64,000 bases of DNA, taken from the NCBI RefSeq assembly GCF_014207655.1, contig NZ_JACHHJ010000001.1, positions 806,001 through 870,000 of the forward strand. The letters are read 5' to 3'. Below the pieces are notes generated by a model that saw nothing but the letters and a program-made list of their open reading frames with translations, had not been told where the DNA came from and searched no databases. A program made the position numbers and the translations under genes. Source of the stretch: Geomicrobium halophilum (GTDB lineage: Bacteria; Bacillota; Bacilli; Bacillales; Marinococcaceae). This document shows positions 3,825 to 42,545 of this stretch, in pieces. Numbering within the stretch: position 1 is the stretch's first letter; the number at the start of each line of letters is the position of its first letter.

Positions 3825-4732
3825 GCAAACACGACACCCCGCTTTATCTTGGCTCTCACGTATCGATGAGTGGAAAAAAAATGCTGCTCGCCTCAAGTGA
3901 GGAAGCAGCTGGATATGATGGGACGGCGTTAATGATTTATACCGGCGCCCCGCAGAACACTCGCAGGAAAGCGATTGAGGATTTGAATATTGAGGCCGGC
4001 AACACTCATATGAAAGAGAACGGGATTGAAAAAGTTGTTGTGCACGCGCCGTATATCATTAATATCGCGAACACACAAAAGCCGGAAACATTTGACCTGG
4101 GCGTTCGTTTTTTACGTTCCGAAATTGAACGTACAGAAGCGATTGGTGCGACGCAAATTGTTCTTCACCCCGGTTCCCACGTTGGAGAGGGGGCAGACAA
4201 AGGAATCGCGAAGATCATCGAAGGACTGAACGAAGTCATCGCAAAAGAACAAAATGTTCAAATTGCGTTAGAAACAATGGCTGGGAAAGGCTCTGAATGT
4301 GGCCGTTCCTTTGACGAGCTGGCACAAATCATTGATGGTGTAACCCATAATGAAAAGCTATCGGTTTGTTTTGATACTTGCCACATTCATGATGCTGGAT
4401 ATGATATCGTCGATGACTTTGATGGAGTAATGAAGACATTTGACGATATCGTTGGTCTTGAGCGATTAAAAGTGTTACATCTGAATGATAGCAAAAATCC
4501 CCAAGGAGCCAGAAAAGACCGCCACGAAAACATCGGTTTTGGACATATTGGGTTTGATGCTCTTAATAAAATCGTTCATCATGAAACGGTTGCCCACTTA
4601 CCAAAAATTTTAGAGACCCCGTATGTTGGAGAAGACAAGAAGAATAAGAAACCTCCGTACAAACGTGAAATCGCTATGTTACGCGAAGGGACCCACGACG
4701 CACAAATGAAAGATAAGTTAATGCAAGCTTAA
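3821..4732 (+). CDS. nfo: Endonuclease IV (AP endonuclease)
   Basis: A 303-residue class II AP endonuclease of the Nfo family, which cleaves DNA 5' to abasic sites during base excision repair using a trinuclear Zn centre. The TIM-barrel metal motifs are present: [28 protein letters not shown] and [16 protein letters not shown]. Length is as in B. subtilis Nfo (297). It overlaps cshB by four bases and has a strong AGAGGAGG ribosome site inside the cshB end. The cshB-nfo order is conserved in Bacillaceae. Confidence 0.96.
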
Positions 4733-6876: not shown

Positions 6877-8403
6877 TTATTTAAAAATGAGCGTAAAACG
6901 AGTGTGCAAGGCTTTTTCTAATTGCCCAATGTCCTTTGAAGCCTGTATTTCTTCAAAGTATTTGCCTTTCCCTTTTGTATAAATGAATATCTTATTTTTA
7001 CGTCCACGTGTAGATGATTGGATTTTGATGTTATCGACAATGGAACGACCAGTGGTAAATAGCCCATTTGAAAAGCGTAGAATAGCTCCGAGCTGCTCAT
7101 AGTTCTTTAATACCTTTCCATTTAATAGTCGTTGGAATTGGGAAGCTTTTTTACGTAATTGTTTACAAGTAGTAAAAGAAGCGATGAGTGCAATCGCTAT
7201 TTGTTGTTCGTGTGTAAATCCATCCAGCGAACGATTGGTAAGTACAGAGAACGTATGCTCATGGGATTGCTCCTCATCGATATAGGCACCAAGCCCTTTT
7301 AAGTGAGCACTGTAGAAAAGGAGCATCTGATCACGAGCGTTGTCGGCGCTATTAGGCTTTGGATGTAATGCCTGATACAGCTTGGTCGCAACCCTGTACA
7401 CTCCAGTTCCAAATGGTTCATAAAGGTTATATTCCTTACGCAATTGCAGAAGTGTTTCCTCTTTGACAGTAGGAAGCGTTTGGTGCTTTTTTCGCATGGA
7501 TTCAAAAAGCAATCCATCCCTGATCCCTTTTTGACTAATAATAAGACTTGTGGCTTGTATATGCCGTAGCAATTCAGCAATAAAAAGGCCGGCAGGGACG
7601 ATATAATCGGCCCGGTCTTTGGATAGGCTTGGAACTTTTCCCCGTTTCGCTAAAGGGATTTTACGCAAATAGTGGTACGTATCCCTGAGTTCAGCTGAAG
7701 TCATCTCATATTGGTGGAGTCCTAGAAATGGGTCATTTCTTCGATGCTGATGAACCGCAGCAAGTTGGCGTACACTCCCGCCTACGCCGATCGCCGGCAC
7801 TTTCATATTTTTTAGCCAAGGTTGGCTGCTGAACATTTTCGCGGCTAGCTTTTTAATTCTTTTTGTCGAGGCATTGACTGCGTTTTCATCCCAAAGTTGC
7901 AAGAGCGTTAACGTACCGATTGGAAAGCTGTAGGCATGGGTTAACCTCTTACTTTTCATCGCAGCAACCTCCGTACTCGACCCTCCCATATCAAAAATCA
8001 GCCCATCTTCAATATCGATCGAGTGAATGGTAGCAAGATAGCTATAGTAGGCTTCTTCTTGTCCTAATAAAACTTGGAGTTCAATACCAGTCTTTTCCCA
8101 AACATAGGAAAGAATCTGTTCGCGATTTTTCGCTTTACGAACAGCTGCAGTTGCAACCGCTCGGACTTCTTGAACTTGATGAGCTTCTAATACGGCTTTA
8201 AAATGAGAAAAAATTTCTTCTAAAACTGCAAAACCTTTAGCGGTTAGAAGTTGTGTTTCTTCATCGAGATATTGGCTTAATCGGGCGGCTACTTTTAAAT
8301 TAAAAAGAGAGCGGTAGCGTCGGTGTTTCCCAACTGTATAAATGACAAGGCGAATTGAATTTGAACCGAGGTCAATAACTCCGATCCGTTCCGTTTCATG
8401 CAT
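6877..8403 (-). CDS. ppx: Ppx/GppA family exopolyphosphatase
   Basis: A 508-residue phosphatase of the ASKHA fold. Motifs seen: GVIDLGSNSIRLV near the N-terminus (phosphate 1 loop), ATAAVRKAKN, FDMGGSSTEVA and GVGGSVRQLA, followed by a C-terminal helical HD-like domain of about 190 residues. The family hydrolyses terminal phosphates of inorganic polyphosphate or the 5'-phosphate of pppGpp; sequence alone does not separate the two. ATG 8403 was chosen because GGGGG lies just upstream; an ATG at 8418 falls on the ribosome site itself. It ends two bases from the kinase stop (convergent), and its promoter region is shared with znuC. Confidence 0.88.
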   Translation of the reverse strand: MHETERIGVIDLGSNSIRLVIYTVGKHRRYRSLFNLKVAARLSQYLDEETQLLTAKGFAVLEEIFSHFKAVLEAHQVQEVRAVATAAVRKAKNREQILSYVWEKTGIELQVLLGQEEAYYSYLATIHSIDIEDGLIFDMGGSSTEVAAMKSKRLTHAYSFPIGTLTLLQLWDENAVNASTKRIKKLAAKMFSSQPWLKNMKVPAIGVGGSVRQLAAVHQHRRNDPFLGLHQYEMTSAELRDTYHYLRKIPLAKRGKVPSLSKDRADYIVPAGLFIAELLRHIQATSLIISQKGIRDGLLFESMRKKHQTLPTVKEETLLQLRKEYNLYEPFGTGVYRVATKLYQALHPKPNSADNARDQMLLFYSAHLKGLGAYIDEEQSHEHTFSVLTNRSLDGFTHEQQIAIALIASFTTCKQLRKKASQFQRLLNGKVLKNYEQLGAILRFSNGLFTTGRSIVDNIKIQSSTRGRKNKIFIYTKGKGKYFEEIQASKDIGQLEKALHTRFTLIFK

Positions 8404-8428
8404 AAATATAACCCCCATTTACCGATCA

Positions 8429-8457
8429 TTTACAAAAGGAGTACGATACGTTATACT
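8429..8457 (+). promoter_or_regulatory. Sigma-A promoter of the znuCB-zur operon
   Basis: TTTACA (8429-8434) and TATACT (8452-8457) are separated by exactly 17 bases, which is close to consensus. The predicted transcript starts near 8464, about 270 bases before znuC, so the mRNA carries a long leader. Confidence 0.65.
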
Positions 8458-8466
8458 ACAAAGGTC

Positions 8467-8486
8467 AAATCGTAATCATTCTGTTT
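8467..8486 (+). promoter_or_regulatory. Zur-box-like operator
   Basis: AAATCGTAATCATTCTGTTT closely matches the Bacillus Zur box (AAATCGTAATnATTACGATTT); the left half is perfect and the right half is degenerate. It lies right after the predicted transcription start, where bound Zur would block initiation. Zur itself is the third gene of the operon, giving a zinc-dependent feedback loop (inference). Confidence 0.65.
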
Positions 8487-8494
8487 AAGGAGCT

Positions 8495-8692
8495 TGTTCA
8501 AAAAGCCCGGGAAAACTTCCTCGAAAAGGAACCCGCTTTTCCTTCGTGAGAAGTGAATGCTTTCATGGTCAAGCAGGATGCTCGAGACGGGCTTTCTTGC
8601 ACTCCAGAGCATAAGAGAATCTAGACTCGTCATTTTGGTGATAAGCTAACATTTTCTAAAACTTCTCGGCTTTTTGTTCTCCTTTTTGAACA
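8495..8692. repeat. MITE-like dispersed repeat, copy A
   Basis: A 198-bp non-coding element with inverted ends: TGTTCAAAAAG on the left and CTTTTTGAACA on the right. Its interior shares about 60 bases (8514-8576) at high identity with 37483-37548, including TTCCTTCGTGAGAAGTGAAT and AAGCAGGATGCTCG. It has no coding potential. It lies in the predicted 5' leader between the Zur box and znuC. Confidence 0.7.
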
Positions 8693-8733
8693 CGTGATGG
8701 TCACGGATTCGTCTCCAAATGGGAGGTCCTTGT

Positions 8734-9507
8734 ATGTATAAAAAAAGCGAAGCTGTTATTGATATTCAACAGATATCATATCAATACGAGAATTCACCTG
8801 TCTTAAATCGTGTTAGCCTAAATGTTCAACCAGGATCATTTCTTGGACTCGTAGGACCAAATGGATCTGGGAAATCTACACTCATTAAGTGTATACTCGG
8901 GCTCTTAAAACCGCAAGCGGGAACGATTCATTTATTCGGCACCGACGTAAATCATTTTACAAAGTGGGGAAAAGTCGGTTACGTTTCACAACGAGCGAAT
9001 CGTTTTAACGCCGGTTTTCCTGCGACGGTTTTCGAGGTCGTTTCGATGGGGTTGTTTGGTCAACTTGGCTTATTCCGTTTTCCTAAGAAAAAAGATCATC
9101 ATCGCGTTTATGAGGCGCTTGAAACTGTGGGGATGAGTGCCTACGCCAAACAGTCGATCGGGCGCCTGTCAGGTGGCCAGCAGCAACGGGTATTCATCGC
9201 GCGCGCGCTTGTGAGCGAGCCAGAATTACTTATTCTTGATGAGCCGACGGTTGGTGTTGACGCTAACTCAGCGAGACATTTCTATGATCTATTGGGAAAT
9301 CTAAACCAATTTCATGGTCTTACGCTCTTACTTGTGAGCCATGATGTCGGGACAATGACACGATACGTTTCCGACGTTGCCTGTTTAAATCAAACGTTGC
9401 ATTTTCATGGAAGTACCCGCGATTTTGAAGCGAATAAAGATTTGTCTGCGCTTTATGGTTATGATGTCCAACATGTCATTCATGAACACGAGGAAATGGC
9501 ACGATGA
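8734..9507 (+). CDS. znuC: Zinc ABC transporter ATP-binding protein
   Basis: A 257-residue ABC ATPase that powers zinc import. Walker A GPNGSGKST, Q-loop region, signature LSGGQQQRV, Walker B LLILDEPTVGVD and the switch His in VSHDVGTMT are all present. It belongs to the metal-type (ZnuC/AdcC) subfamily, judged from the cognate ZnuB permease and Zur repressor that follow. ATG 8734 is used because GGGAGG lies just upstream; the ATG at 8719 overlaps that site. The C-terminus overlaps znuB by four bases. No solute-binding protein (ZnuA) gene is in this cluster, so it must be elsewhere. Confidence 0.92.
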   Translation: MYKKSEAVIDIQQISYQYENSPVLNRVSLNVQPGSFLGLVGPNGSGKSTLIKCILGLLKPQAGTIHLFGTDVNHFTKWGKVGYVSQRANRFNAGFPATVFEVVSMGLFGQLGLFRFPKKKDHHRVYEALETVGMSAYAKQSIGRLSGGQQQRVFIARALVSEPELLILDEPTVGVDANSARHFYDLLGNLNQFHGLTLLLVSHDVGTMTRYVSDVACLNQTLHFHGSTRDFEANKDLSALYGYDVQHVIHEHEEMAR

Positions 9508-10373
9508 TTGACGTTTTTTTTCAATATGATTTTCTGCGAAATGCTTTGTTCTCAGGAATGTTGATTGGACTTGTCGCCCCGTTGCTGGGCGTATTTCTCG
9601 TAGTGAAACGGATGTCACTTGTCGCGGATGCCTTGTCCCATATTACCCTTACAGGTATTGCTTTCCACTTTCTGCTTGCGACGGTTTTCGTCGGGCTTGC
9701 CGGTGTTGATCCTTTATACATGGGGATGGCCTTTGCCATTATCGGTGCGTTATTTATTGATCAACTGAGAAAAATTTACAGCCACTTCAAAGAATTAGCG
9801 ATCCCCATTATTTTATCCGCCGGTGTCGGTCTTGGTGTTGTGTTTATCTCCATTGCTGATGGTTTTAATACGGATTTATTTGCATATCTGTTTGGAAGTG
9901 TAGCCGCTGTCGGGCAGACGGATTTCTATATGATCACCATCGTTTCCTTGCTTGTAGGTGCTCTGCTGATTCTTTTTTATAAAGAATGGTTCTTCCTCTC
10001 TTTCGATGAAGAACAAGCAAAAGTCTCCGGTTTGTCAGGGAAGTGGCTTGACTTAATTTTTACGGTGCTTGTAGCTCTTGTCATTGCTGCCGCGATGAGA
10101 ATCGTAGGGATTTTACTCGTGTCAGCGCTAATGGCACTTCCGGTTGCCGCCGCGATGCAATGGGCAAAAAGTTTTAAACAGATGTTTTTTTATTCCGCTG
10201 TTTTTGGAGAAATTGCTGTCCTTGCCGGCATCATTTTGGGCTTTTATTTAGATTTGGCTCCAGGTGGTGTCATTGTGGTCGCTGCAGTGTTGATTTTACT
10301 CTTGAGCATCTTTTTGCAAAAGTTAAATCGGAAATCATTTCAGACTAAATATGCAGAACCTGACGCTGGATAG
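9504..10373 (+). CDS. znuB: Zinc ABC transporter permease
   Basis: A 289-residue polytopic membrane protein of the ABC-3 family with about eight hydrophobic segments. The family signature region LVADALSHITLTGIA follows the first membrane helix, and a second conserved stretch RIVGILLVSALMALPVAAA is near residues 192-212. It forms the membrane channel for ZnuC. It is coupled to znuC by an ATGA overlap and is followed by zur after 55 bases. Confidence 0.92.
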   Translation: MIDVFFQYDFLRNALFSGMLIGLVAPLLGVFLVVKRMSLVADALSHITLTGIAFHFLLATVFVGLAGVDPLYMGMAFAIIGALFIDQLRKIYSHFKELAIPIILSAGVGLGVVFISIADGFNTDLFAYLFGSVAAVGQTDFYMITIVSLLVGALLILFYKEWFFLSFDEEQAKVSGLSGKWLDLIFTVLVALVIAAAMRIVGILLVSALMALPVAAAMQWAKSFKQMFFYSAVFGEIAVLAGIILGFYLDLAPGGVIVVAAVLILLLSIFLQKLNRKSFQTKYAEPDAG

Positions 10374-10428: not shown

Positions 10429-10863
10429 ATGGATGTTCATACGGCTATGTCCAGGTTAAAAGATAAAGGGTATAAATACACGGATAAAAGACAGGAAATT
10501 CTCGAATATTTAGACAAGCAAAATGGGTACGTGCCGGCAAAACAAGTGCTGGCGTTTATGCAGAAGCAATATGATGGGCTGAGTTATGACACCGTGTACC
10601 GAAACCTTTCCTTATTTGCTGAAATAGGCATCTTGGAAGCAAGCGAATGGGAAGGTGAGAAGCGGTTTCGTCTCAGCTGTGCAGGAAGTCACCATCATCA
10701 TATGATTTGTTTGGCATGTGGAACAACGAAGCATATTCCTGCTTGTCCTATGGAAGAATTAAATTTAGGAGAAGATGATTTTAAAGTAACGAGCCATAAG
10801 TTTGAAATTTTTGGTTACTGCCCTCCTTGTCACCAAGAGCAAGAGGAGACTGCTTTAAGCTAA
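10429..10863 (+). CDS. zur: Zinc-responsive Fur-family repressor Zur
   Basis: A 144-residue Fur-family regulator: winged helix (about residues 1-85) followed by the metal-binding dimerisation domain. The His-rich segment SHHHHMICLACGTTKHI and the structural zinc cysteines (CLAC and YCPPC) are present. The location after znuCB identifies it as the zinc sensor rather than Fur or PerR (inference from context). It follows a GGAGGGAATCC ribosome site. A strong terminator follows directly. Confidence 0.9.
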   Translation: MDVHTAMSRLKDKGYKYTDKRQEILEYLDKQNGYVPAKQVLAFMQKQYDGLSYDTVYRNLSLFAEIGILEASEWEGEKRFRLSCAGSHHHHMICLACGTTKHIPACPMEELNLGEDDFKVTSHKFEIFGYCPPCHQEQEETALS

Positions 10864-31159: not shown

Positions 31160-31599
31160 TGCTTTCCAACATGATCAAAATTCCCGAGTTTAATCTACAA
31201 AGGTTTCATTTGTACTTACAGAATAGATTTCAAATGCGTGATTCTGTAAAACAGGAAAAGGAATTGATTCATTAACATCACCACTGAAAAGTCCTCTAAA
31301 AATACCTTTCATCTTGGTTGGCGGTCAGCACTGATCGCTTAGAGACTATAATACTTCATCATAAATGAGTTTTATATTTTCCCGGCTTTTTGAACACCCT
31401 CTTCATTCCTAACTTTGACGAATATCCCTATGTAGCAGTTATCCATTTCTGTCGACCGCTTTTTAACCTCTTGTTTAAACATCATCCAGTCCTTTTATGT
31501 ATGATTTTAATATGAGCACAATTTATTTGTGTGAAATTACTAAAGGCGGTACACTGCCAATAGATAAAAGAATCGTGAATAAGTAGAGGGGGGCTCGGT
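31160..31599. other. Non-coding gap between aspA and thiE
   Basis: About 440 bases without a supported gene. CCCGGCTTTTTGAACACC (about 31380-31397) matches the right end of the MITE-like repeat family and is probably a fragment. The rest is AT-rich; I see no clear promoter for thiE and no riboswitch (no THI-box pattern recognised). Confidence 0.45.
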
Positions 31600-37330: not shown

Positions 37331-37595
37331 TGTTTAAAAAAGTCCGGGAAAATAGCGGTCGTATTTCTTCGTCGACTTGCTTCTGCACGCCTCACGTATG
37401 AAAACCATATCCTCGAAAAAGAAAACCGCTTTTTCATCGTGTGAAGGAACGCTTACGAAGCAGCCAGCTGTCGCTTTGCTCCTCGGAAAAGAACCCCCTT
37501 TTCCTTCGTGAGAAGTGAATGCTTTCGTGGTGCAAGCAGGATGCTCGCTTCATCTTCACGAAACTCCTCGGCTCTTTTTACCTCCTTTTTGAACA
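37331..37595. repeat. MITE-like dispersed repeat, copy B
   Basis: A 265-bp element with ends TGTTTAAAAAAG and CTTTTTGAACA. The right two-thirds match copy A (8495-8692); the left part holds a second, diverged version of the same core (TCCTCGAAAAAGAAAACCGC), so it may be a partial internal duplication. No coding potential. Confidence 0.7.
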
Positions 37596-42374: not shown

Positions 42375-42545
42375 GATGATGACAGAGGGAGAGATCGTTT
42401 AAAGCGACGCCGAAGGAGCAAGCCGGTAAGGTGAATCTCTCAGGCCCAAGTACTTCTGTTTGACGCAGCTCTGGAGAGTGCCACAAGGCCACCCACGAAG
42501 ACATCCTTTGCCTACCTGGGCAAAGAGGAAACTTTCTGGTATATG
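42375..42545 (+). promoter_or_regulatory. Glycine riboswitch (tandem aptamers)
   Basis: The leader shows the two glycine aptamers in tandem. The first includes GGGAGAGATCG, GCGACGCCGAAGGAGCAAGC and GTGAATCTCTCAGGC; the second includes CTGGAGAGTGCC, CACCCACGAAG and GGGCAAAGAGGAAACTTTCT. It lies upstream of gcvT and a full intrinsic terminator, so glycine binding likely lets transcription read into the operon (known for gcvT riboswitches). Confidence 0.93.

Follow-up and report, generated by a model that had tools for sequence, protein, structure and literature searches.

The znuC gene of Geomicrobium halophilum lies downstream of about 200 bp of repeat DNA, which itself follows a predicted promoter and Zur box. 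What is this repeat, and does it change how the zinc-uptake genes are expressed? An earlier note on this DNA had called it a MITE-like element in an unusually long leader and had suggested that it could affect expression or transcript stability. We analyzed the element within a window of 64,000 nucleotides (positions 806001-870000 of contig C1), taken from a 3.5-Mb genome that is the sole representative of its genus in our comparison. The features of the locus are collected in Table 1.

Table 1. Features of the znuC locus, in window coordinates
Feature	Position	Strand	Remarks
ppx, exopolyphosphatase	6877..8418	-	PF02541; divergent neighbor of znuC
znuC promoter, sigma-A type	8429..8457	+	TTTACA-17-TATACT; predicted; sole promoter-like site in 8300-8800
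Zur operator	8467..8486	+	15-nt core 8470-8484; directly 3' of promoter; intact
MITE-like mosaic hairpin element	8490..8697	+	core TGTTC...GAACA 8495-8692; whole-length match to model R1
Left terminal inverted repeat	8490..8505	+	GAGCTTGTTCAAAAAG
Right terminal inverted repeat	8682..8697	+	CTTTTTGAACACGTGA; last bases diverged
znuC ribosome-binding site	8721..8726	+	GGGAGG; inside predicted hairpin 8711-8727, element not involved
znuC, metal (zinc) ABC transporter ATP-binding protein	8734..9507	+	ORF; PF00005; start codon 8734 picked by ribosome-binding site
znuB, metal (zinc) ABC transporter permease	9504..10373	+	PF00950; best NCBIfam match zinc AztB, under cut-off
Fur-family regulator	10429..10863	+	PF01475; NCBIfam matches under cut-off, best Fur, PerR

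The best NCBIfam match of znuC is zinc AztA, and all NCBIfam matches shown fall under the curated cut-offs. From its position and the Zur box, the Fur-family regulator is presumably Zur. Among the ZnuB proteins found, the nearest named relative is that of Natribacillus halophilus (84% identity); it is followed by Geomicrobium and a single Bacillaceae isolate (73-74%), Alkalihalobacillus trypoxylicola (68%) and Salsuginibacillus kocurii (66%). Elsewhere in the window, a glycine riboswitch aptamer was matched at 42376-42465 (69.9 bits).

The repeat itself is real. The string TGTTCAAAAAG occupies 8495-8505 and its inverted partner 8682-8692, and blastn returned at least 60 matches to this copy in its own genome, counting itself and separate pieces of single copies (40 of 157 candidates scored). 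The previously given length of 198 bp is right for the stretch between these ends; five extra bases at each end extend the element to 8490-8697. A covariance model (R1), made from compact copies of the element with their structure included (alignment A3, described below), matches the znuC copy over its full length, with a score of 40.1 bits (E = 2.9e-10 for the window). The copy is a diverged mosaic, in which the two ends of the compact element enclose other hairpin stretches. These internal stretches are common to at least 14 other copies in alignment A1, which holds 15 of 30 own-genome loci, the znuC copy included, and from which the left 24 nt of the element are absent. One piece of the mosaic, CTCTTATGCTCTGGAGTGTCAAG, was also seen in another genus of the family (L067, L075, genome G025), inside a seemingly different repeat. 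The znuC copy gave no Rfam match.

The family to which this copy belongs has inverted ends of the form G(A/T)GNNTGTTCAAAAAG, 16-bp terminal inverted repeats and 5-bp A/T-rich target duplications. A script that located ends in genome stretches around matches yielded 49 paired elements of 92-372 bp, short, non-coding, dispersed and too small to hold a transposase gene. Their 5-bp flanks, taken with a 5-nt spacer outside TGTTC...GAACA, were identical in 20 of 49 cases (3.3 by shuffled pairing) and one base apart in another 12 (9.1 by shuffled pairing); the duplications are TTATA, TTTAA, TATAA and similar. Exact duplications were also found at 8 of 24 elements in other genomes, against 1.8 by shuffling, one locus that gave no flank being scored as a miss. 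Family ends, duplications and dispersed copies together bear out the MITE-like nature that had been proposed. Across the genome, the end pattern had 85 + 86 matches versus 16 + 19 for a reversed control, a longer version of the pattern being less specific, and R1, with 150 of 1790 candidates scored, matched at least 74 places at E <= 0.001, one of which is the znuC copy. The window holds a second copy at 37331-37595 on the + strand, which is 265 bp long and has TTTTA exactly duplicated at its flanks, and a solitary left end at 31375-31395 (- strand), for which no partner was accepted within 700 bp in its stretch. ORFs beside 10 unpaired ends showed no transposase family in Pfam; they matched a sigma factor, a DeoR regulator, transporters, enzymes and similar proteins, and one had no family.

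The znuC copy is flanked by TTAAG and TGGTC, identical at 1/5 positions, and thus shows no target duplication; given this poor agreement, its right junction has probably decayed. Since a matching duplication is missing here, we infer the insertion from the family and from relatives rather than from an empty site in the same genus. Its placement is not special, because 19 of 80 classified sites lie between divergent genes (89 sites were found and 9 at stretch edges dropped; the gene calls behind the classification are heuristic).

The relatives provide the comparison needed for the leader. A ZnuB search gave 17 loci, in 16 of which znuC was located (a scan found none in L093), with start codons picked by a heuristic script. 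Upstream of znuC, TTTACA-17-TATACT is present in 14 of these 16 and near-variants in the remaining 2, and in all 16 a Zur core with 11-14 of 15 matches follows the -10 box by 12-16 nt; the spacing in the window is 12 nt. The window core, TCGTAATCATTCTGT, agrees at 12/15 positions, as scored, with TCGTAATNATTACGA, which we take to be the Zur box consensus. The promoter and Zur box that had been predicted upstream of the repeat thus have counterparts in 16/16 relatives, with the conserved spacing of a Zur-regulated znu promoter. What differs is the distance from the Zur core to the znuC start codon, which is 15-102 nt in the 16 relatives and 249 nt in the window; N. halophilus, whose Zur core is identical, has a gap of 36 nt. 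The expectation that a znu leader is usually much shorter therefore held, and the 249-nt gap arises because 208 bp of it (8490-8697) are a mobile element. R1 found no match at 16 of the 17 relative loci, and at the remaining one only 44-nt hairpins outside the leader. At that locus, in Evansella caseinilytica (L096, 3610-4048), four successive hairpins starting with TGTTCAAAAAGATAAAAAGCGATCTTT and spaced 130-140 nt lie just 5' of the znuC promoter. The final one (4005-4048) carries the two ends and gives a weak R1 match (24.8 bits). Their ends are similar to those of the element, and otherwise this is a different repeat.

If transcription starts at 8464, as we assume, the znuC leader measures about 270 nt, or 61 nt with 8489-8697 removed. 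The leader is thus probably some 270 nt long and mostly element, with the predicted transcript running through it. The least credible alternative, a znuC start inside or after the element with a leader free of it, might draw on the fact that the element fills most of the gap between Zur core and znuC, but a simple consensus scan found no promoter-like site within 8458-8734, and the upstream promoter and Zur core are conserved in 16/16 relatives. No outward promoter was found inside the element either.

How much the added RNA matters was judged from predicted folding. Across the ribosome-binding site and start codon, the probability of being unpaired changes by no more than 0.08 when 8489-8697 is removed from the leader. 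Start-site accessibility is predicted to be unchanged because a small separate hairpin encloses the ribosome-binding site. By eye, a CTCC...GGAG pairing akin to this hairpin can also be seen in the leader of N. halophilus, so the hairpin around the znuC ribosome-binding site is possibly a conserved feature of the two.

The history that we consider likely is that a MITE-like element landed in the gap that separates the Zur operator from the znuC ribosome-binding site, sparing promoter and operator, and that it added about 208 nt to the leader with nearly neutral effect. The element would be non-autonomous, creating a 5-bp A/T-rich duplication upon insertion, and would be moved by a transposase acting in trans. 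With promoter and operator intact, Zur should still control initiation. Transcription would proceed through the element, lengthening the leader by about 208 nt. In the predicted fold, the element RNA makes up a long hairpin by itself and pairing in the start region stays what it was; such a hairpin could serve as an RNase III substrate. Because the element appears to fold alone and the start region to stay unaltered, the insertion was most likely tolerated and roughly neutral.

RNase III processing is the leading alternative to neutrality: the co-transcribed hairpin would be functional in the znuC leader, its cleavage altering the stability or translation of znu mRNA. The predicted fold of the znuC copy is more stable than those of shuffled sequences (z = -3.2). 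According to excerpts of PMC10969869 and PMC2229807, RNase III cleaves Correia elements in several transcripts, mtrCDE among them. In Bacillus cereus, according to excerpts of PMC3446304, the mRNAs of two strains contain 84 of 165 and 62 of 155 copies of bcr repeats (all 18 families), and bcr3 goes with a longer mRNA half-life, although the authors call the numbers small; the idea of a role in the leader was therefore reasonable. In tandem contexts, 32 copies of our family are oriented with the flanking genes and 16 against (p = 0.03), an excess that could reflect some influence on transcripts. Copy orientation, however, also agrees with local GC skew in 51 of 80 cases (p = 0.02), so this excess is confounded by replication direction. 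Against a functional hairpin, A1 contains no covariation (term -0.12; both-sided change in 1 of 22 pairs), a weak fold due in part to the missing left 24 nt; start-site accessibility is predicted to be the same with and without the element; the element was not found in the znuC leaders of the 16 relatives; and among bcr1, bcr2 and bcr3, only bcr3 is described as correlated with decay in the excerpted text of PMC3446304. The regulatory or stabilizing role suggested earlier thus did not find support, the prediction being that the element folds independently and leaves ribosome-binding-site pairing unchanged, and we regard a functional hairpin as unlikely.

Attenuation, in which a terminator within the element would halt some transcripts before znuC, is more doubtful by far. 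Two terminator-like sites occur in 8300-8800, where 0.4 are expected, and one of them (8580-8592, followed by TTTCTT) is inside the element. However, its stem is weak, with 5 pairs and no clean T-run, the second site is the ribosome-binding-site hairpin outside the element, and the T-runs near the right end of the element fall in the predicted long stem. Taken by itself, the znuC case is an ordinary MITE insertion. It nonetheless serves as a natural test of the tolerance of a Zur-controlled transcript for a long hairpin that separates its operator from the start codon. Of greater weight is the wider family, one mobile hairpin detected with high confidence across many genera of a single order.

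As plain DNA, the znuC copy matches 9 of 101 genomes, its own included, and besides its own only G009 (75%) matches over most of the length. The left-end motif AGAGGNTGTTCAAAAAGTCNGNNAA, with up to 1 mismatch, reaches further: it was found in 50 of 397 genomes of the order, representing 28 of 136 genera (control, 0), with 182 places in G248 alone, and in a sample of the class in 9 of 398 genomes, six of them outside the order. In G248, three copies of the compact element stand in tandem, 156 bp apart (contig C8, 65412-65877). Copies of the compact element from other genera, 143-147 bp long, align with own-genome copies of 143-144 bp (alignment A3; 16 sequences, 86% mean identity, comprising 12 of 30 end-motif loci and 4 own copies, chosen for length). 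R1, built from A3, matches 178 of 397 genomes at E <= 0.001, of which the weak ones may in part be terminators or short hairpins that have similar ends, as at L096; 68 genomes match at E <= 1e-20 by hand count.

Plasmid or phage carriage was rejected, since searches with the znuC copy and with the compact element gave no match (72,556 plasmid records for the compact element), and two exact end strings were absent from viral contigs. A 60-nt left-end query gave weak matches in two plasmid records (5 places). At the one place read in each, the Paenibacillus cellulosilyticus record has a 57-bp copy with TTATA on either side and the Radiobacillus kanasensis record a short copy with TTCTA on either side. 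Right-end queries gave chance-level matches or none among plasmids. In open-access text, six longer end strings were not found, and among the matches listed for TGTTCAAAAAG no title concerned Bacillus-type bacteria. Within Rfam and open-access text, the family appears undescribed.

Each compact copy of 145 bp, in many genera, folds into a single long hairpin, and its two arms change in concert. A3 folds as a single hairpin of 39 pairs, 13 of which changed on both sides; shuffles gave a mean of 6.7, and 0 of 500 reached 13. Counted by alignment cell, there were 40 both-sided changes versus 5 G-T intermediates. A second set (A4) of 24 copies, left after 6 of 30 loci were dropped as the same places, was aligned without structure; it leans toward structure all the same, its members having been picked as top matches to the structure-bearing R1, and several of its genomes are shared with A3. 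In A4, 98.9% of cells pair, sliding the partners lowers pairing to 37-55%, and 15 of 39 pairs have both-sided changes (76 both-sided cells versus 2 one-sided). The number of further standard pair types was no higher than in shuffles (438 of 500 were as high for A3 and 311 of 500 for A4), unlike the other four covariation measures, which exceeded them. A tree of all 40 copies, built on 82 unpaired columns and giving rough event counts, had 58 both-sided events, compared with 8 that began or ended in G-T and 30 that began or ended in an unpaired state.

Reading RNA constraint straight from this covariation was rejected, since both-sided changes far exceed G-T intermediates, which fits DNA-level causes better. 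RNA constraint should often pass via G-U, yet such steps are nearly absent. The joint changes of the arms may point instead to constraint on DNA pairing or to joint repair of both arms. If this is confirmed, the family offers an example in which compensatory changes, usually taken as proof of RNA function, may stem from DNA-level selection or repair.

Some copies of the element carry another repeat. Within 20 chosen related-element loci (19 of the 30 end-motif loci and L062), the Bacillaceae-1 RNA (RF01690) had 7 matches, all 7 between the ends of 6 copies from other genomes. Like the element, Bacillaceae-1 is multi-copy in many genomes of the order; it is present in 55 of 101 genomes, with one match in the genome of the window. 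It is absent from the window at the gathering threshold and from the znuC locus at E <= 1: nested in some element copies elsewhere, it is not in the znuC copy. Thirty RF01690 loci were collected, 27 of them testable for element ends and 3 cut by contig ends. Both ends occurred within 1 mismatch at 0 of 27, so the idea that Bacillaceae-1 is simply the element family was rejected. Within 2 mismatches, both ends occurred at 4 of 27 (L220, L226, L236, L240) and at none in a shifted control, although 12 of 27 control positions had one end by chance, which is no less often than at the loci themselves. Bacillaceae-1 would thus be mostly a separate repeat that is sometimes a passenger in the element. 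If confirmed, this means that an Rfam RNA whose function is unknown has a mobile context in part of the genomes.

We tentatively propose, as a possibility rather than as the expected outcome, that the element is one of a family of mobile hairpins, found across the order, that stay palindromic at the DNA level over their whole length and not just at the ends. A hairpin or cruciform would be recognized or copied in transposition, with the arms corrected jointly, and structured repeats such as the Bacillaceae-1 RNA would be ferried to leaders and intergenic regions, so that RNA domains land between regulated promoters and genes like znuC.

Among known systems, the nearest in description are bcr1-bcr3 of the Bacillus cereus group, intergenic multi-copy repeats of 100-400 bp that excerpts of PMC3446304 and PMC6542083 term MITE-like and place often in UTRs and operon gaps. 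They resemble our family in being short, intergenic, multi-copy and MITE-like. According to the same excerpts, the first bcr element is limited to the B. cereus group and its mobility is tied to a TTTAT motif, whereas our family, compared by description, has variable A/T-rich 5-mers and occurs in many genera. Some bcr1 copies lie on plasmids (excerpts of PMC6542083), and the absence of the compact element from the plasmid records argues weakly against identity with bcr1. Correia/NEMIS, ERIC and RUP elements are short, with terminal inverted repeats, target duplications, long RNA stem-loops, co-transcription and effects on mRNA (excerpts of PMC10969869 and PMC2229807); short length, terminal inverted repeats, target duplications and folding into long stem-loops are shared with our family. 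The lengths listed there for their terminal inverted repeats are 24, 7 and 9 bp, and the termini carry TA. By description, our family differs from them in its 16-bp terminal inverted repeats, its 5-bp duplication and a pairing that is kept through the whole 145 bp across genera.
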